Below are positions 6,705-18,829 of a stretch of DNA of 20,348 bases, piece by piece (within the stretch, counting starts at the first letter, position 1; each line of letters starts with the position of its first letter). Both the position numbers and the translations under genes were made by a program. The DNA is from a virus. The notes under the pieces are model-generated. The model had not been told where the DNA came from. It did not search any database and saw only the letters and a list, made by a program, of their open reading frames with translations. The stretch covers positions 1 through 20,348 of IMG/VR virus record IMGVR_UViG_3300042937_000835. One strand, given 5' to 3'.

Positions 6705-7487
6705 TCACCCGTCACCGGCAGCAGGGGGTGCGGACGCATTGCACTCGGCGAGACAGGCCGCGTAGCCGGCTAGGTCAACAGCGTTGTCGGGGTGGGGCTT
6801 CGGCCCCAAGTCGCGGGCGAGCTTGTCGAGCAGCATGATTCGAGCCCAATCGGACGTAGTCAGCGGCCGTTTCAGCACGGACGCGAACAGGCTGTTGACC
6901 ATGCCCACCGTCCTTTGGAAATGCTCCTGCGGCGGGCCGTACACGCGGTGCCGATCGAGCACCGCGGCCCGCGCCGTGTCGAGGAGCTGCACCGCCACCG
7001 GCGGGCCTTCGGCCTCTTCGATCAACGTCGCCTCCGGCTCGAACTCGTCGCCGGTGAAGTGCTTCAACTCCCGCTCGCCCCGCAGGATGTGATCGGCCGG
7101 GTATTCCGCCTGAACGCTGATCGCGGCCGCCGCGGCCCGCGTCGCAGCGGCTTTTTTTTCGTGTTCCGCTTCGTCGAAGCCAGCGCGAAAACACGGCGGG
7201 TCTTCGGAGCTGTACTTCCACGGCTCAGCCGGGGAGCTTCGCTTCCAATACTTCCCGGCCCCGTTGCAATACGGGCACGTAGGCACCAGCCCGACGATGC
7301 CGCGGCACGTGTTGCACGGGACTTCGATTCGTGGCGGGTATTCCTCTGCCATCTTCCGCGTCTCCTGAATGTGTCGCACCAGCCGCCGAGCATCGCCGGC
7401 GAGAGAGCCGAGTGTGCCCGTCCAGCAGTTGGCCGCACCGGCCCTCTGGATGCGTTGGTCGATGGTAGCGAGGTCGGCGTCTGTCAC
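6705..7487 (-). CDS. DUF6378-like protein with a DnaJ-type zinc motif
   Basis: A 260-residue protein with three parts. Residues 58-77 carry Cys58-x2-Cys61 (CNTCRG) and Cys71-x2-Cys74 (CPYCNGAG), which look like a DnaJ-type zinc-binding motif. The middle is charged and helical. The C-terminal part (about 165-250) has the pattern RVYGPPQEHF ... LLDKLARDLG ... NAVDLAGYAA, which I associate with the phage domain DUF6378 of unknown function. Its biochemical role is not known to me. The gene starts with GTG at 7487, overlapping the stop of the phosphoesterase gene (GTGA), with GAGG 5 bases upstream. An A8 run (7152-7159) sits inside the coding sequence. Confidence 0.7.
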   Translation of the reverse strand: MTDADLATIDQRIQRAGAANCWTGTLGSLAGDARRLVRHIQETRKMAEEYPPRIEVPCNTCRGIVGLVPTCPYCNGAGKYWKRSSPAEPWKYSSEDPPCFRAGFDEAEHEKKAAATRAAAAAISVQAEYPADHILRGERELKHFTGDEFEPEATLIEEAEGPPVAVQLLDTARAAVLDRHRVYGPPQEHFQRTVGMVNSLFASVLKRPLTTSDWARIMLLDKLARDLGPKPHPDNAVDLAGYAACLAECNASAPPAAGDG

Positions 7488-8503
7488 GATTGCCTCACCC
7501 GGCCCGCCTGGATTCGGAAGTTCTCCACGTCAAACGAGCGGTCGGCGTGGACCGTCACGATCGCTGCGCCTTGATTCCATTTGTTAAGGCGAGCGTAAGC
7601 CGGGCGCATGTCACACAAGCAGCCCGTCGAGAAGCACACCGTCTCCGATCCCATCATGTCAGGCTCGGAGTGTGTGCTGGTGCGGTGCCCGTGGCCCTCG
7701 AGGACGGTGTGATGCAGCCGCATGAAAGCCCCGCGGGCTTGATTCACCGGCGAGCTGATGCCGTTGCCCTTTTCGTGCCCGTGCAGGACCGGCAACGCAC
7801 CGCAGAGGACGATCCGCTTGTCCTTTACCAACTCGATCCCGAGCCGCTCGAACCCATACCAATTGTCGATTCCCATGATTGGGTCATCGCTGATTTCAGG
7901 GGCGTGCTGAAATAGCCACGATTCCCAGCGCTCTTCGTGGTTCCCGAGTTTGGCGACGATCCGAATGCCGGGGAACTCTTGGCGAATCCATTTCAAGAGA
8001 TCGCGGCCCGCGTGCAGCTCGTTGCGGAAGTTGCGGTACTTCGGATTCTTCTCGTGCCGGCTGATCGAGTAGAAGTCGGCCCAATCGCCGTTGAGCAAGA
8101 GAGCGTCGATCTTCTCGCCCTGAAGGTGATCGACTGCGGCCCGCAGCGCCGTCTCGTCGTGGTACGGGACGTGAATGTCGGACAGGATGCCGACCTTGCC
8201 GACGATCCCGAGATCGAACGGCAGCCACGGCTCGGCCTGCGATGGCGGCATGGCCAGCCGCTGGCCTGCCGGCCGCGGCTCGCGGTGTAGTCGCTTGCTG
8301 GGGGCTTCCTTCCGCCTGGCGGACCCGCACAATCCGAGAGCGAGTCGCACCCGCGTCCTCGCCTGCTCAAGGGTCAGTGCCCCGTTCGTCTCTTCGACGA
8401 TCCGGCGGGCGAGCGTCCGAGCCGGCGCGTCCGGGTGTGCCTCGACGATCCGGCGGACAATCGGCGTGATCTGGTCGCCGGCAGCGGTGCCACGTCTAGC
8501 CAT
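7484..8503 (-). CDS. Calcineurin-like metallophosphoesterase
   Basis: A 339-residue protein with the full metallophosphoesterase signature: Asp109 and His111 (SDIHVPYHD), Asp140 (LLNGDWAD), Asn188 and His189 (KLGNHEERW), His241 (LHGHEKG), and His271 and His273 (EGHGHRTS). These residues bind two metal ions and hydrolyse phosphate mono- or diesters in this superfamily. Residues 1-60 form a separate helical region resembling a small HTH domain (IVRRIVEAHPDAPARTLARR), which may bind DNA or partners. The substrate is unknown. Phage homologues can act on nucleic acid ends, nucleotides or protein phosphates. The ATG at 8503 has GAGGAGG upstream, and its 3' end overlaps the DUF6378-like gene by 4 bases. 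Confidence 0.88.
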   Translation of the reverse strand: MARRGTAAGDQITPIVRRIVEAHPDAPARTLARRIVEETNGALTLEQARTRVRLALGLCGSARRKEAPSKRLHREPRPAGQRLAMPPSQAEPWLPFDLGIVGKVGILSDIHVPYHDETALRAAVDHLQGEKIDALLLNGDWADFYSISRHEKNPKYRNFRNELHAGRDLLKWIRQEFPGIRIVAKLGNHEERWESWLFQHAPEISDDPIMGIDNWYGFERLGIELVKDKRIVLCGALPVLHGHEKGNGISSPVNQARGAFMRLHHTVLEGHGHRTSTHSEPDMMGSETVCFSTGCLCDMRPAYARLNKWNQGAAIVTVHADRSFDVENFRIQAGRVRQS

Positions 8504-11046: not shown

Positions 11047-11951
11047 GCCACACCAATGCCGAGTTTCGAGAAGTCGCCATCGGGATAGACGCGGTTGACG
11101 TAGACAGCCACCGGCAGGCGAACGAGCTGATTCTTTGCGGAATCAGTGTCCGTGGCGTATCGCACCCACACCACCTCGTGGCCGTAGGCTCGGATGTTGT
11201 CGATGTCGCCGATCTTGGCGACCGGCAGCGTCGTGCCGACGTTGGGGTTGGCGACGAACTTGAACGAGAGCGACCACGGACCGTTGCCACGCTGGTCGTC
11301 CCATTCGTGCGTCCCCGAGGCTCCGACAAACAAGACTTCGCCTTCCTCGAACGACCGGAACGGCGCTTTGTTCACGCTGCCGGTGAGGTAGGCGATGTTC
11401 TTGATGTAGGCGTTTGTGACGTACGAAGACGGTACGTCGTACGACTCCGTCCACGACAAGGCCGGCACCACCCTGTCGATGCCATTCACCCCGTTGTCAT
11501 CGACGTTGATCGCCCCCTTGAAGTCGGCGGCGTCGTTCAATCCCGCCGGGCCGTAGCTTCGCTGGCCCTTGTCGCCGTTGTTGTAGTCGAGGGCGTTGGT
11601 GATGTGCTGCGTGCCGCCGCTGGTGTCGAACGACCGCGCCCGCTTGAGCGGTGCCACCTGCGACGAATCGTCGGCCCCGATCTTCTCGTAGGCGATCGTT
11701 ACCTTCCAGCAGTCGTCGCCTTGATACTCGACCGAATACGACTCAGCCCGCAGTCGAACGAGCGGCTGGCCTGGGTACTGCCAGAACGGGTAGAGCGACG
11801 AGATCGCTTGGTTGCACGAGGCGTGCAGGACGTTTTCATTCGACGTGCCGATCACGTTGAAGACGCGAGTCCGCGTCGATGCGTCCTTCCGGCCGAGGCG
11901 GAAGATCGTCGCCGACTGGCTCGTACTGTCTTCGATCCATGTCAGTGCCAT
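11043..11951 (-). CDS. Probable distal tail / tail-tip protein
   Basis: A 302-residue beta-rich protein directly after the tape measure gene, the slot that distal tail or tail-tip proteins take in siphoviruses. It contains alternating strands (VRLRAESYSVEYQGDDCWKV), a long Asn/Asp-rich middle and a C-terminal RLPVAVYVNRVYPDG segment. No catalytic motif is visible. The start at 11951 shares a base with the tape measure stop (TAATG). The identity as a Dit-like protein rests on gene order only. Confidence 0.6.
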   Translation of the reverse strand: MALTWIEDSTSQSATIFRLGRKDASTRTRVFNVIGTSNENVLHASCNQAISSLYPFWQYPGQPLVRLRAESYSVEYQGDDCWKVTIAYEKIGADDSSQVAPLKRARSFDTSGGTQHITNALDYNNGDKGQRSYGPAGLNDAADFKGAINVDDNGVNGIDRVVPALSWTESYDVPSSYVTNAYIKNIAYLTGSVNKAPFRSFEEGEVLFVGASGTHEWDDQRGNGPWSLSFKFVANPNVGTTLPVAKIGDIDNIRAYGHEVVWVRYATDTDSAKNQLVRLPVAVYVNRVYPDGDFSKLGIGVA

Positions 11952-13456
11952 TAGACGCCCACCTGTCCGGCCATCGCGGCCGCCTTGAGGTCTTCGCGGA
12001 TCTTCTTGAGGGTGTCGAGCTGCTGCGCCGGGATCGAGCTGGCCCCCATCTGGCTGAGTCCCGCCGCCCCGAACTGCGCCGTGGTGGTCGCCTTCATCGA
12101 CGACTCCGGATTGGCGACAGCGTTCGGCACCGGGAACCGATTGACTTGGTCTTGGAGATTCCGATTGGCGTCGGCCACCGCCTGGGCACGGGTGCCGACG
12201 TTGGCAGCCGTCCGGCCGGCACGCTCACGCCGGAGCCGGTCCGCTTCCTCCGACATCGCCGCTTGCCGGTCGCGGCTCTCCTGCTGCATCTTGGCTTTCT
12301 GCTCGTCGGTCAGCCCCGTGCGGCCGGCAAAGCCCGGCCGGTCGCGGCCACGCTGCTCAGCGTTGGCTGCATTGACGGCGTCGATGCGGGCGAACTCCGC
12401 CGCGGCGGCCTCGTCGGAGACGCGGCCCATCCGCCGCCACATCTCCGTCCAACCCTTTTGAATCAGCCCGGTCGTGGTGTCCCAATACGCCACCATCGAA
12501 TTGAGCACGTTGTCGAGCGCGCCGAGGATGTAGCCGCCCCACTCGCTCGTCGCCATGTCCGTCCACATCTGGTCCCACATGGCGGCCATGCCGATGCCCA
12601 TGTCGGAGAAGACGTTCTGCACGGCCTCGATCCACGGGTCGAGCGATCCCATGATCGCCTGCTCACCCCTCGCCCACGCCGCGGCCCACCCGGCCCACAG
12701 CACATCGACGGCCCCGGCGAGGTCGCCGGCCGCGATCGCCCGGTAGACGCCTTCGACGGTCAGATTGACGGTGTCGAGGAGATCGCCAAAGACGGCCGTG
12801 AGGTTTCCGATTGGGTTGGCGAAGGCGTTGCCGATCACGCCGGCAAGCTTGCGGAAGTCCACGCCAGCCAGTGCCGCGCCGGCTGCCAGCCCGCCGAGGA
12901 CCGCCACGGCTGCCAGCACCGGGCCGCTCGTCGCAAACGCCCCGACAGCGATTGCCGCACCCTTGACCATGCCCAGAAACCCGCTCACCGGCCCAATGGA
13001 CGCCGCGATCGTGCGGGACAGCGTCGTCATGGCGAATCCGAGGGCGTACGTTGCCGTGCCCCAGACCGTGAAGTAGCCGCCGACCGCGACCGCCAGGCGG
13101 ACAAGAGCCGCGTTGTCGCGGACGAACTTGGCGACGGCCTTCGCGGCCCCGGCGACGACGTTGGCGATGCCGACGAACGCCGGCGCGACGGCCTCGCCGA
13201 CAGCGTTGCCCACGTCCTTGAGCGCCCGCTCCATGTTCTGGATCTCAGCGGTTCGCTCGACGAACGCCCCGCCGACGGCCATGATCGGGCCGGCAATCGC
13301 CGCCCCGATCGCCGCCATGCCCATGCCGGCCGATTCCAACGTCATGCCGACATCGGCGACCTTCGTGTTGATCGTCGAGAGCGCCGACAGGAACTTTGAC
13401 GGATTCGCCCCGATCTCGACGTAGACCTGACCGCCGCGGACTGCTGATGCACTCAT
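11951..13456 (-). CDS. Tail tape measure protein
   Basis: A 501-residue protein with tape-measure composition: Ala/Gly-rich helices and several hydrophobic segments in residues about 35-65 (MGMAAIGAAIAGPIMAVGGAF) and 110-210, then a charged coiled-coil-like region (about 390-450, QQESRDRQAAMSEEADRLRRE) and an Ala/Gln-rich end. Tape measures set tail length, and by the usual rule of about 0.15 nm per residue this predicts a tail near 75 nm. The ATG at 13456 has GGAGG 7 bases upstream, and the frameshifted chaperone ORF stops 3 bases before it. It follows the chaperone gene as in lambda-like tails. Confidence 0.85.
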   Translation of the reverse strand: MSASAVRGGQVYVEIGANPSKFLSALSTINTKVADVGMTLESAGMGMAAIGAAIAGPIMAVGGAFVERTAEIQNMERALKDVGNAVGEAVAPAFVGIANVVAGAAKAVAKFVRDNAALVRLAVAVGGYFTVWGTATYALGFAMTTLSRTIAASIGPVSGFLGMVKGAAIAVGAFATSGPVLAAVAVLGGLAAGAALAGVDFRKLAGVIGNAFANPIGNLTAVFGDLLDTVNLTVEGVYRAIAAGDLAGAVDVLWAGWAAAWARGEQAIMGSLDPWIEAVQNVFSDMGIGMAAMWDQMWTDMATSEWGGYILGALDNVLNSMVAYWDTTTGLIQKGWTEMWRRMGRVSDEAAAAEFARIDAVNAANAEQRGRDRPGFAGRTGLTDEQKAKMQQESRDRQAAMSEEADRLRRERAGRTAANVGTRAQAVADANRNLQDQVNRFPVPNAVANPESSMKATTTAQFGAAGLSQMGASSIPAQQLDTLKKIREDLKAAAMAGQVGV

Positions 13457-13459
13457 GGA

Positions 13460-14178
13460 CTAGCCTCCGGCGGGACCGAACAAGGCTTCAAGGTCTTCCT
13501 GCGTTGCTTCTCGCTTCGGGGGCGGCGTTGCCTTGCTGAACGGGTTGAGCTTGGATGCGTCGATCGCCGGCTTGCCCTGCCCGCGGTTGGCGTTGGCGAA
13601 TTGGGCCATCTGCTGTGCGGTGTGCCACCAGTCGGACTCAAGGCGAGCGTCACGCGCCGCCGTCAGCTCTCGGAGGGTGCGGTTGTCGGGATCAAGTCCG
13701 GTGATGCCAACGCACTCCCAGATGACGGCCCAGGTGCCCGAATAGCCGCCTCCGCGTTGTCGATCATCTGATCCGCCAGCTCCTTCATCCTGGCTGACAG
13801 AGCCGCGATCGCGCTGCGGAGGCGCGGGGGGAAAAAAGCGACTAGCTCCTCTTCGACTGCCAGCCCTCCTTGCTCGAGCGACTCGCCCTTCAGCCCGTCA
13901 AGGAATTGCTCCTGCGTCAGCCCCTTTTGGGTGACCTGCGGCAAGAGGATCGCGTACAGCGTGTCGCCGAGAGCGGAGAAGTTCGACCGCAAGACTTGGA
14001 ACGTCCTGGCGATCTCGCCGGCGTCGATCAAGTCGAACGGCACCGCCTCGGTCGGGGCTGGCTCGTCGGCCGACTTTGGCGGAAGCACCACCAACACCGA
14101 GTCCTTCACTCTCTTCGCCGACGACACGGTGAGCGACACGTGCCACGGCCTGCCCTCGTTGTCCTTGAACTCTCTCAT
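13460..14178 (-). CDS. Tail assembly chaperone, frameshifted long form (gpGT-like), -1 shift
   Basis: If ribosomes slip -1 at the T6C6 run (13826-13837), the 171-residue chaperone is extended in the -1 frame to a stop at 13460-13462, giving about 239 residues. The -1 frame has no stop from 13897 to the TAG. It is clearly coding from about 13745 on: GYSGTWAVIWECVGITG, then DPDNRTLRELTAARDARLE, and an end at LEALFGPAGG. It contains no ATG, GTG or TTG before 13609, so independent initiation is unlikely. In lambda, gpG and gpGT arise this way and recruit tail-tube subunits to the tape measure. The gene order here (tail tube, chaperone, tape measure) is the same. Codon third-position bias in the zone 13750-13826 favours the zero frame, so a slip later than T6C6 cannot be ruled out. 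Confidence 0.75.
13663..14178 (-). CDS. Tail assembly chaperone, short form (gpG-like)
   Basis: A 171-residue protein that begins with a compact strand region (MREFKDNEGRPWHVSLTVSS), continues with a helical middle (AGEIARTFQVLRSNFSALGDTLY, QEQFLDGLKGESLEQGG) and reaches EELVAFFPPRLRSAIAALS. The tail of this frame (after about residue 147, IRAPGPSS onward) reads like out-of-frame sequence. Its stop at 13663 lies inside the -1 extension. The start overlaps the previous tail-tube-like gene by 4 bases (ATGA). Placement between tail-tube genes and the tape measure is the standard slot for a tail assembly chaperone, which is the basis of the call. Confidence 0.75.
   Translation of the reverse strand: MREFKDNEGRPWHVSLTVSSAKRVKDSVLVVLPPKSADEPAPTEAVPFDLIDAGEIARTFQVLRSNFSALGDTLYAILLPQVTQKGLTQEQFLDGLKGESLEQGGLAVEEELVAFFPPRLRSAIAALSARMKELADQMIDNAEAAIRAPGPSSGSALASPDLIPTTAPSES
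13825..13837 (-). other. Tandem -1 slippery sequence TTTTTTCCCCCCG
   Basis: Read on the minus strand, codons GCT TTT TTC CCC CCG contain two overlapping X XXY YYZ heptamers in the zero frame: T TTT TTC (13837-13831) and C CCC CCG (13831-13825). Both allow tRNA re-pairing one base back. The following stretch, GCGCGATCGCGG (about 13803-13814), contains GC-rich palindromic bases that could form a stimulatory structure. This marks the likely slip site for the long chaperone form. Confidence 0.72.
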
Positions 14179-15973: not shown

Positions 15974-16420
15974 TCAGTGGCTCCTCGGCACCTTGAACGT
16001 CACCACGATCCCCGCCCGCCACACGTTCCGCTCCTGCAGAGCCTCGCCGGGATTCTTCTCGACGACGATCGTCTGCGGAGACGTGACGCCGGTCGGCCAC
16101 GTGATCCCCGGCCAGTTGTGATCTTCGAGGTAGCCCAGCAGCTCCTCGAGCATCTCAAGCATCACGTCGCAATCCGCCTCTTCCGGCGTGTGCCGGGCAA
16201 GGTAGATCTCGACCGCGTAGTCGCGCATGTGCGACGACCGGGCGATCCGCTCCGACTCAATCGAGCCGTCGGTGATGCAGATCACCGGGTCGGCAAGATC
16301 CTCGATGTCGTACTGGGGGAAGTTCTTCGTCTCGACGGTGACCGTCGCGGCCGTCGCCGTGAACGTCACCGCGTCGAGCGAGGCGACGAGCGCCGTGATG
16401 ATGTCCGCTTGGATGCTCAC
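15974..16420 (-). CDS. Tail-terminator-like protein
   Basis: A 148-residue protein started by GTG at 16420, with GGAGG 7 bases upstream, that overlaps the stop of the glycosyltransferase gene (GTGA). Its layout is an N-terminal helix (IQADIITALVASL), a strand (TATAATVTVETKN), ICITDGSIESERIARSSHMR, a central DYAVEIYLARHT strand, a Leu-rich helix (MLEMLEELLGYLE) and a final strand (RAGIVVTFKVP). This is the pattern of tail-terminator proteins (gpU-like), which form a ring that ends the tail tube. I assign it by layout and by position next to the gp10-like gene. Confidence 0.55.
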   Translation of the reverse strand: MSIQADIITALVASLDAVTFTATAATVTVETKNFPQYDIEDLADPVICITDGSIESERIARSSHMRDYAVEIYLARHTPEEADCDVMLEMLEELLGYLEDHNWPGITWPTGVTSPQTIVVEKNPGEALQERNVWRAGIVVTFKVPRSH

Positions 16421-17451
16421 AGGCTCGCCTCCATTGCCGCTGCGTTGCCCACGATCCGCTCGTCCCAATGCAATTGTGCCGCCGCGGCCCTGGCATGCGT
16501 CAGGGCGTCCGCCTTGCGGCCGAGGTGCCAGAGGGCGATCGAGGCAAGCTCTGCCGCCCTGGCCTTCGCCAGCGGGTCGGTGGCGTGGGTGCTGACCGGC
16601 GAGGCAATCGCCCGCTCGGCAAACTCCAGCGACCGCGGCCAGTCCTCGCCGTGGTGAGCGGCCAGCGCCAGCCGTTCCCACCCGTCCGGCTCGCCCGGCG
16701 ATTCTTTCGCGGCCCGCTCGAGGTAAGCCCCGTCGCCGGTGATCGACGCGAGCCGGCGAAGAGCATAGGCACGCTCCGTCGGCGATCCGCCGGGCATCTT
16801 CAGGAAGCCGGCGAACTCGCCCGCCGCCGTCGGTATGCCCGCGTAATCAAGCTCCCGAGCGTAGTACCACCTCGCCCGTGCGTCGGCCGGCGACTCGTTG
16901 ACCGCGACCTTCAGCAAGTCGAGGTCCGTCTTGTGAGCCTTGTTCTTGTCTCGGTGGTGCTCGACCACCAGGCCGTCGCACTTCCGCTGCACCTTCTCCC
17001 CCGACCAGCAGACGAGCCCTTCGTGCGTCGCCTGCCGCCACACGAATCCCGACCGGGCGTGGACACGGTCGCAATGGAAACGCAGGAGCGGCTGGCCGGC
17101 GTCGTCCATCGACCACCAGTAGTCGTAGACGAGGTTGTTCGCGGTGCCGTCCCACGCCGCTTCGATCGCCGCCCGCCAGCCCGGCTGGGGCCGCTCGTCG
17201 AGATCGACGCGGAACGCCACATCGACATCCGGCGGAAGATTGCAAAGCGACTGTGTCCATGCCACGTCCCACCGCCAGGGCACCACGTACGACCGGGCCA
17301 CGGTGACGCCGGCCGCCTCGAGCTGCTCGATCGTGCCGTCGGTCGAGCCGGTGTCGGTGACGACGCGGACATCGGCGTCGGCGGTTGCCGCGGCCCACGC
17401 TGCCGCGTGCTTCGACTCGTTCTTGGCGAGAGCGTAGATCCCGATTCTCAA
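16417..17451 (-). CDS. GT-A glycosyltransferase with C-terminal TPR-like region
   Basis: A 344-residue protein. The N-terminal domain is family-2-like: IGIYALAKNESKHA, then DTGSTDGT (33-40), and a metal-site motif RVDLDER (81-87). Further on comes HEGLVCW (143-149), where GT2 enzymes carry an acceptor-side motif. Residues about 190-335 are Ala/Leu-rich helical repeats like TPR units. It would transfer a sugar from a nucleotide donor to an unknown acceptor. The start is TTG at 17451, which overlaps the previous gene's stop (TTGA) and has GGAG 8 bases upstream; any further in-frame extension reads like noncoding sequence. Its stop overlaps the terminator-like gene, so this sugar enzyme is coupled to a tail gene. 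Confidence 0.8.
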   Translation of the reverse strand: MRIGIYALAKNESKHAAAWAAATADADVRVVTDTGSTDGTIEQLEAAGVTVARSYVVPWRWDVAWTQSLCNLPPDVDVAFRVDLDERPQPGWRAAIEAAWDGTANNLVYDYWWSMDDAGQPLLRFHCDRVHARSGFVWRQATHEGLVCWSGEKVQRKCDGLVVEHHRDKNKAHKTDLDLLKVAVNESPADARARWYYARELDYAGIPTAAGEFAGFLKMPGGSPTERAYALRRLASITGDGAYLERAAKESPGEPDGWERLALAAHHGEDWPRSLEFAERAIASPVSTHATDPLAKARAAELASIALWHLGRKADALTHARAAAAQLHWDERIVGNAAAMEASL

Positions 17452-18134
17452 AGGGTGTACTCCTTCGGGTTGCCGACCGTGTACCACGCCAGCGGCTCCT
17501 CGACCCGCATGATCCCGGTAAGCCGGGACGCCCGCTGCCAGTAGTCCCAGTCCTCGCCGAAGCCGACGGCTTGCTGATCGCCCAACCGCTCGACGATCTT
17601 GCTGTGGATCATCGCCGTCGAGTTGATGACGGGATTCATGGCCCGGCAGATCGCGGTCACGTCGCGGGTGGTGTCGGTGATCTGCACGCCTTGCGTCCCG
17701 TGGTGGTAGCCGCTGACAACGCCGGCGGGGTCGCGGTTGAAGGCGTTTGAGCAGAGGACGCCATACCGGCCGTTCGATCCCACGGCCGCGAACTGGACCG
17801 CCGACTTCGTCTTCAGCCACTCGTCGTCGTCGTCCAAGAACGCCACCCACCCGCTGAACCCGATCTTGAGCACGTGCCGAATCGCTTCGTTTCGCACGGT
17901 GCCAACGGCGAACCCTGCCCCGGTTTCCTCGCGGCTCGACACGGCTCGCCGGAGGACCGTAAGCCGCGGGCTGCCGACGATCTCCTCGAGCCACTGGTAA
18001 CGGGGATCGTCGGAGGCGTCGTCAACGACAAACACTTCTGCCGGCGGGACGGTCTGCGTCAGCGCCGACCGAATCGCCCGCAGGCACAGCCGGTAGCGGT
18101 TCCGCGTCGGGATGACGACGACGTAGTCATTCAT
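17448..18134 (-). CDS. Family 2 (GT-A) glycosyltransferase
   Basis: A 228-residue GT-A enzyme. The fold start is clear (VVVIPTRNRYRLCLRAI), with the nucleotide-binding VDDASDD (38-43) and the metal-binding FLDDDDEW (DDDDE at 101-105). A later GFGEDWDYW (191-199) matches the catalytic acidic motif of GT2 enzymes. It is shorter than many GT2 proteins but seems complete. The ATG at 18134 overlaps the stop of the HtrL-like gene (ATGA). The donor and acceptor cannot be read from the sequence. Together with the neighbouring sugar genes it may build a glycan on a virion or host surface component. Confidence 0.85.
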   Translation of the reverse strand: MNDYVVVIPTRNRYRLCLRAIRSALTQTVPPAEVFVVDDASDDPRYQWLEEIVGSPRLTVLRRAVSSREETGAGFAVGTVRNEAIRHVLKIGFSGWVAFLDDDDEWLKTKSAVQFAAVGSNGRYGVLCSNAFNRDPAGVVSGYHHGTQGVQITDTTRDVTAICRAMNPVINSTAMIHSKIVERLGDQQAVGFGEDWDYWQRASRLTGIMRVEEPLAWYTVGNPKEYTL

Positions 18135-18829
18135 TGATAGCCCGCCAAGATGGTGCCGTTGTGGTCGCATCGCCAGGAGTCAAACCAATCCGGGTGCAGC
18201 CGCCAGACGTTGGCCCACGTGTTCACCTCCCACGTAGCCTGCCCGGCCTCGATCTGCCGCTGGGCCTCAATCCGTACCGCCATGTCGAGCCACGACGCCA
18301 TGTTCCGAGGCACGGCAAGCACCCCGCCGGCACAGTGCCACGCCACCCGCTCCGGCGGCACGGGAGCGAACGGCGGCCCCCAGATCGACGCCATGCCCAC
18401 CCGATCGCGGCACCGCTCGCCGGCACGCTCCGCCAGGCGTCGGATGCCGTCGGCTGTGATGCCCGGCACGTGGAAGATTCCAAAATCGATCCACAGCAGC
18501 ACTTCCGCGTCGGAGTAGCTGGCAGCGTCGGCGAGCCACGCCGTCTTCTGGTGCTGCACGCTGAGGAACGCCCGTGTGTCCTTGCCGGCCGTGCCGTCCG
18601 GCAGCCCGGCCCCCTCCGACGCCTGCCAGTACCAGCAGCGCTCGAGCGACGCATGCAGCCGTAGCAGACCGGGCCGCGACCGCATGACTGCCGCCGGGTC
18701 GAGGTAGGCCACCGTCGGAAGCCCGACATCGACGAGCTGCTGACCGAGAGCGGTGTACCGCTCGTGGCCGCGATGCTCGCTGTCGAGCCGGACGTACCCG
18801 GTCACGATATGGGCTGGAGCAGCTCGCAT
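18131..18829 (-). CDS. HtrL/YibB-like putative glycosyltransferase
   Basis: A 232-residue protein resembling the HtrL/YibB group, which is often found among sugar genes and may be glycosyltransferase-like. Its N-terminus, HIVTGYVRLD, is followed by a helix; then come QHQKTAWLADA, LLWIDFGIFH (Asp115, possible metal contact), ASIWGPPFAP and a C-terminal WFDSWRCDHNGTIL. The family link is by pattern recall and could be wrong. The ATG at 18829 follows GAGGAGG by 4 bases and overlaps the GH130-like gene by 28 bases. Confidence 0.55.
   Translation of the reverse strand: MRAAPAHIVTGYVRLDSEHRGHERYTALGQQLVDVGLPTVAYLDPAAVMRSRPGLLRLHASLERCWYWQASEGAGLPDGTAGKDTRAFLSVQHQKTAWLADAASYSDAEVLLWIDFGIFHVPGITADGIRRLAERAGERCRDRVGMASIWGPPFAPVPPERVAWHCAGGVLAVPRNMASWLDMAVRIEAQRQIEAGQATWEVNTWANVWRLHPDWFDSWRCDHNGTILAGYQ

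Follow-up and report, generated by a model that had tools for sequence, protein, structure and literature searches.

The tail-gene locus and its relatives

The window, that is, the whole stretch of DNA analysed here, is a viral contig of 20,348 bases (IMGVR_UViG_3300042937_000835). Its minus strand carries a zero-frame ORF that overlaps an open -1 frame and is followed directly by a gene for a tape-measure-like protein. The features of this locus are listed below.

13663..14178, minus strand: zero-frame ORF for the putative short form (gpG-like), ATG 14178 to TGA 13663, 171 aa
13846..13850, minus strand: AGGAG, a Shine-Dalgarno-like candidate stimulator 8 nt upstream of the T run (from sequence)
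13831..13837, minus strand: slippery heptamer T TTT TTC, in phase in 126/127 distinct relatives; efficient in E. coli (PMC4066793)
13825..13831, minus strand: second heptamer C CCC CCG, sharing the last C of the first; lineage-specific (C6 in 45/126)
13816..13824, minus strand: 5' arm of the downstream stem, CGCCTCCGC, 6 nt past the heptamer (folding, covariation)
13747..13755, minus strand: 3' arm of the downstream stem, GCGGAGGCG (folding, covariation)
13463..13830, minus strand: predicted -1-frame extension, a low-complexity linker and then a T-like domain from ~13750 (weak PF06223; AlphaFold2)
13460..13462, minus strand: -1-frame stop TAG (from sequence)
11951..13456, minus strand: tape-measure-like protein, 501 aa, directly downstream (phrog_1272, E 2.6e-7)

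The family matched by 11951–13456, phrog_1272, is the tail length tape measure protein family. This tape-measure-like protein has only 501 aa compared with the 853 aa of lambda gpH; its length, if complete, would point to a short tail. Upstream of the zero-frame ORF, the region 15219–14881 weakly matches a major-tail-protein family (E 0.005).

Relatives were collected by five scans of viral contigs and one scan of genome contigs, which yielded 331 loci, including the window's own and many that overlap. After the removal of duplicates, 127 distinct sequences contain both the site region and the T domain, and 18 representatives below 70% identity, which are still related to each other, were chosen from them. 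Nearly all relatives are uncultured contigs from many metagenomes, and the genome-contig scan returned a single match, L177 (L177:4820-5200), from a Nitrosomonas metagenome assembly. Stretches encoding T-domain relatives gave 440 to 491 reported matches per single scan, and neither protein had a match in a search of 50,697 annotated phage genomes. The zero-frame ORF is intact in all 42 of the full-length aligned relatives of the close clade.

The slippery heptamer and the downstream stem

The run TTTTTTCCCCCCG is located at 13837–13825 on the minus strand, phased GC T TTT TTC CCC CCG CGC in the zero-frame ORF, and holds the two overlapping in-phase heptamers pointed out in the initial annotation. 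T6C6 (13837–13826, minus strand) occurs once in the window and in none of 100 shuffles, and TTTTTTC alone occurs five times against 0.55 expected. Among the 127 distinct sequences, 126 carry T TTT TTC in the zero-frame phase and inside the open -1 frame, exactly one each, and a Pro codon always comes next. The outlier, L177, has an in-phase A AAA AAG that lies a few codons downstream of this position and represents a natural swap of the slippery heptamer. In the 18 representatives, the residue ahead of Phe-Phe is D, A, G, S, N, or C, yet its codon always ends in T (GAT, GCT, GGT, TCT, AAT, or TGT, followed by TTT-TTC), while T-ending codons otherwise make up 11–13% in the genes of these representatives. 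With amino acids and codon usage taken into account, xxT TTT TTC has a joint probability of ~1e-23, a value uncorrected for relatedness that serves as a guide only. No synonymous variation is seen at GAT (where Asp is encoded), TTT, and TTC across 44 sequences below 90% identity, and the Pro codon that follows the heptamer is CCC in 25, CCG in 15, and CCA in four. In the alignment around the site, no block except TTTTTTCCC is invariant over more than two adjacent columns.

The C run is far less constant. C6 is kept in 45 of the 126 relatives and absent in the other 81, and it is broken to CCCACC in L088, which belongs to the same close clade as the window. U_UU.U_UU.C falls in the H_HH.U_UU.Y class that is efficient in E. 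coli, whereas the list of efficient heptamers for this species does not include C_CC.C_CC.G (PMC4066793). The initial proposal of two tandem heptamers acting as one device is therefore not upheld, and the check suggested with it, an alignment of homologues for T6C6 and both frames, supports the T6 part and the two frames and fails for the C6 part. Judging from this pattern of conservation, the heptamer TTTTTTC appears to be selected and the C run does not. By reasoning from the sequence, the codon pairs TTT-TTC, TTC-CCC, and CCC-CCG of the window are all able to re-pair one base back, and a slip at any of the three would lead to the identical protein (...FFPP-APPQR). Since three re-pairing registers would give one product and C6 is poorly kept, the tract could tune the slip rate without being part of the core signal.

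The AGGAG upstream of the run is no stronger than in synonymous controls (mean z -0.2), so selection for a Shine-Dalgarno stimulator was not detected. A literature search for TTTTTTC in phage frameshifts returned nothing relevant; the study of Xu et al. 2004, reportedly the main survey of tail-gene frameshifts, lay outside its scope, and an earlier report of this heptamer in tail genes is thus possible.

The initial annotation missed the RNA stem downstream of the run, which is added here. A 9-bp stem pairs CGCCTCCGC (13824–13816) with GCGGAGGCG (13755–13747) after a spacer of 6 nt from the heptamer, within the ~5–9 nt downstream at which a stimulatory structure of a -1 signal is expected. Folding windows across the gene revealed one sharp peak of stability that starts just past the heptamer. 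RNA stability at this peak has a mean z of -2.6 in the 18 representatives (Fisher p 5e-15) relative to shuffles that preserve the amino-acid sequence with each gene's own codons, and codon-order shuffles agree with the peak obtained from the synonymous shuffles. Except for those overlapping the peak, the other folding windows range from z -0.8 to +0.5, and background is reached within a few codons. In the window, the stem fold has a free energy of -40.6 kcal/mol (z -2.95).

The stem also covaries among the relatives. Compensatory changes are present in L207, L292, and L260; stem cells changed on both sides number seven compared with 2.4 in shuffles (2/500 as high), and 82% of the stem cells are paired compared with 33–53% when the stem is slid. 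The position of the 5' arm is kept with another partner, over 11–13 bp, in L209, L261, L294, L313, and L228, and is likewise kept in the group of L155, L163, L185, L194, and L244, which has a hairpin of the GGCTGCGA/TCGCAGCC type. The stem is weak or absent in L158 and L163, where the energy test is not significant, and L163 has a local hairpin. Pairing of the stem loop with downstream sequence as a pseudoknot gave a marginal signal only (mean z -0.34 ± 0.16) and is not claimed. Just upstream of the site, RNA stability is not raised; a helix proposed by RNAalifold (7–13 with 24–30) pairs the T run with a GA-rich upstream stretch, mostly through G-U and A-U pairs. As read from the sequence, the putative stimulatory stem and U UUU UUC together have the make-up of a standard -1 cassette.

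Probable position of the slip and the two reading frames

An open -1 frame extends from 13897 to the TAG at 13462–13460, and its first ATG, GTG, or TTG past the T6C6 run is the ATG at 13609, both in line with the initial annotation. A stop of the -1 frame lies right against the T run in 16 relatives, so any slip in these sequences must occur at or after the run. Stops in the -1 frame take up 29 of 274 chances just upstream of the site and none of 159 between the site and the T domain (Fisher p 1e-6), and none of the 126 relatives has a T-frame ATG, GTG, or TTG between the run and the Trp of the T domain. The zero-frame stop follows the end of the heptamer by 165 nt in the window and the start of the site by 166–274 nt across the relatives.

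Codon-position variability in the 42 aligned relatives changes frame near 13745–13728 (index 450 corresponds to about 13728), which bears out the earlier observation that the -1 frame reads as coding from ~13745. A zero-frame bias up to ~13750 had been taken as a hint that ribosomes slip later than the run, near 13750, where the -1 frame shows its own codon pattern. The zero-frame constraint does last to ~13728 and a conserved GCGGAGGCGGC sits near 13750. However, GCGGAGGCGGC does not have the form of a slippery sequence and acts as the 3' arm of the stem, no shift-prone motif other than the heptamer is conserved, with TTTTTTCCC as the only such invariant block, and in every relative the -1 frame stays open once the T6 run is reached. 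A lasting constraint on the zero frame is to be expected, given that the helix at residues 118–147 is required in the short form, and this helix, together with the -1-frame linker, explains the bias better than a late slip does. The switch near 13728 marks the point at which the -1-frame constraint takes over and not the point of the slip, and a slip near 13750 is very unlikely.

Transcriptional slippage on T6C6, by which a base would be inserted and normal translation would then proceed in the -1 frame, is slightly less likely still. A run of nearly the same composition, the T5C5 of an IS element from Roseiflexus, is known to undergo such slippage (PMC5009743). In the Roseiflexus system, however, RNA polymerase deletes a C, insertions are prevented, and an upstream stem-loop is needed (PMC5009743). 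A deletion leads into the +1 frame, where a stop appears after a median of nine codons in the relatives, and is the wrong direction for the present gene. Moreover, pure runs are reported to slip at 9 A or T, C6 is missing in 81/126 relatives, and the RNA upstream of the run shows no raised stability.

In most close relatives, an ATG overlaps the zero-frame stop (TGATG; index 512–515), while the window (13665–13660) and several others have ACG in its place. This overlap, and the presence of a start within 12 nt of the zero-frame stop in 45/126 relatives, would suit a separate synthesis of the T domain by termination-reinitiation at that stop. Against this stand the ACG of the window and the lack of any start upstream of the conserved Trp of the T domain in 126/126 relatives. 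The zero-frame stop typically lies 23–31 codons inside the T domain, and reinitiation would remove the conserved N-terminal part of the domain. Reinitiation as the source of the T domain is thus highly improbable, more so than either slippage at another point or slippage of the polymerase; the overlap ATG of the relatives may offer an extra route to a truncated T domain. Least credible of all is that the overlap arose from faulty sequencing or assembly of a single gene, or from the decay of a pseudogene, since, although homopolymer runs are error-prone, the same two-frame layout with conserved stop spacing recurs in 127 distinct sequences from many metagenomes, and sequencing error is excluded by the independent contigs.

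Predicted products, decoding, and comparison with known systems

The AlphaFold2 model of the short form has a mean pLDDT of 85 and ends in a C-terminal helix (residues 118–147) followed by a disordered tail. The -1-frame extension is modelled with a mean pLDDT of 87. Its linker is Gly/Asp/Arg-rich and of low complexity, while the same stretch is a confident helix in the zero frame. The extension of the window scores 16.2 bits against PF06223, below the curated cut-off of 25.9. PF06223 is matched at E<=0.1 by 24 of 39 relatives (best E 1.6e-5), and none of ten relatives scored singly reaches the cut-off, the best having 24.4 bits. These matches suggest a kinship of the extension to the PF06223 T domain. 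Neither domain has a convincing match in PHROGs, and hhalign profile comparison with lambda gpG and gpT gave no match (gpG probability 2.6). For the short form, the best Foldseek hits among viral models (E 0.013) are unnamed proteins, with named chaperones at low probability only, and sequence and fold searches of the PDB yielded nothing convincing.

At the sequence level, four features are established, namely the conservation of both frames, the heptamer, the lack of alternative starts, and the stem. We therefore consider it very probable (about 0.9) that -1 programmed ribosomal frameshifting decodes this locus as a tail-assembly chaperone gene of the lambda G/GT type. The initial annotation had placed a -1 shift in a tail-chaperone gene at the T run, which agrees with the location of the ORF just upstream of the tape-measure gene and with the conservation of both frames in homologues. 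Most ribosomes would read 14178–13663 and produce the 171-aa short form. A minority would pause at U UUU UUC (13837–13831) because a GC-rich stem starts 6 nt downstream. With the Phe tRNAs of the P and A sites re-paired to UUU UUU, one base back, these ribosomes would then translate the -1 frame to 13460. The resulting long form would comprise residues 1–118 of the short form (up to and including FFPP), the low-complexity linker, and the T-like domain, and would be devoid of the C-terminal helix of the short form. That slippage occurs, and at what rate, is what we infer from these signals. Since position and architecture are like those of the lambda pair, the same chaperone roles may apply, with the short form acting on the tape measure and the long form bridging to the tail-tube protein.

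As the slip would lie 165 nt ahead of the zero-frame stop, the long form would exchange the last helix of the short form for the linker and T domain. The frameshift may thus swap C-termini rather than merely add one, generating alternative-ended chaperones. Accompanying this swap, ~80 nt would carry three layers, i.e., the helix frame, the linker frame, and the putative stimulatory stem, and in the clade of the window C6 would add re-pairing registers that tune the rate and leave the product unchanged. We regard this fuller reading as tentative, with somewhat less than even odds.

Lambda gpG and gpGT are tail-assembly chaperones produced at ~30:1, in which the G portion acts on the tape measure and T on the major tail protein (PMC5009743). 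The present pair shares with them a short protein with a -1-frame extension just upstream of the tape-measure gene, an XXXYYYZ heptamer, and a weak match of the extension to PF06223 (gpT). It differs in its heptamer (TTTTTTC here, GGGAAAG in lambda), in the distance from heptamer to zero-frame stop (165 nt here, 15 nt in lambda), with the loss of a helix from the long form here, and in the conserved downstream stem, which is a feature of the present gene unlike lambda gpG/gpGT. No sequence similarity to lambda gpG or gpT is detectable; the gene would work like lambda G/GT, and its membership by sequence is only suggested. The -1 frameshift cassettes of bacterial IS elements (IS1/IS3 families) also use U_UU.U_UU.C, with downstream RNA structures that stimulate slipping (PMC4066793), but they make a transposase fusion instead of a tail chaperone.

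The frameshift trick itself is known, and it is very probably a clear case that is described here in a large uncultured phage family, with an unusually early slip point. The cassette represents a clean candidate recoding signal for a large, diverse, and uncultured phage group. Ordinary gene-calling programs would miss the T domain because it has no start codon of its own. Over 120 natural versions of a single U UUU UUC cassette, whose stem covaries, would allow tests of how the short-to-long ratio required for tail assembly depends on heptamer, spacer, and stem.

Elsewhere in the window, a tyrosine integrase is encoded at 173–1087 (PF00589, E 1.8e-8; phrog_1, E 6e-31), and the phage is therefore probably temperate. 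Two further TTTTTTC motifs at 1100–1118 on the minus strand, 12 bases apart, adjoin the integrase gene. A metallophosphoesterase is encoded at 7484–8503 on the minus strand (PF00149; phrog_221, E 6e-36), and the region 16417–18170 contains two adjacent and overlapping glycosyltransferase reading frames, with matches to phrog_13126, a beta-1,4-glycosyltransferase (E 1e-57), and PF00535 (E 2e-14).
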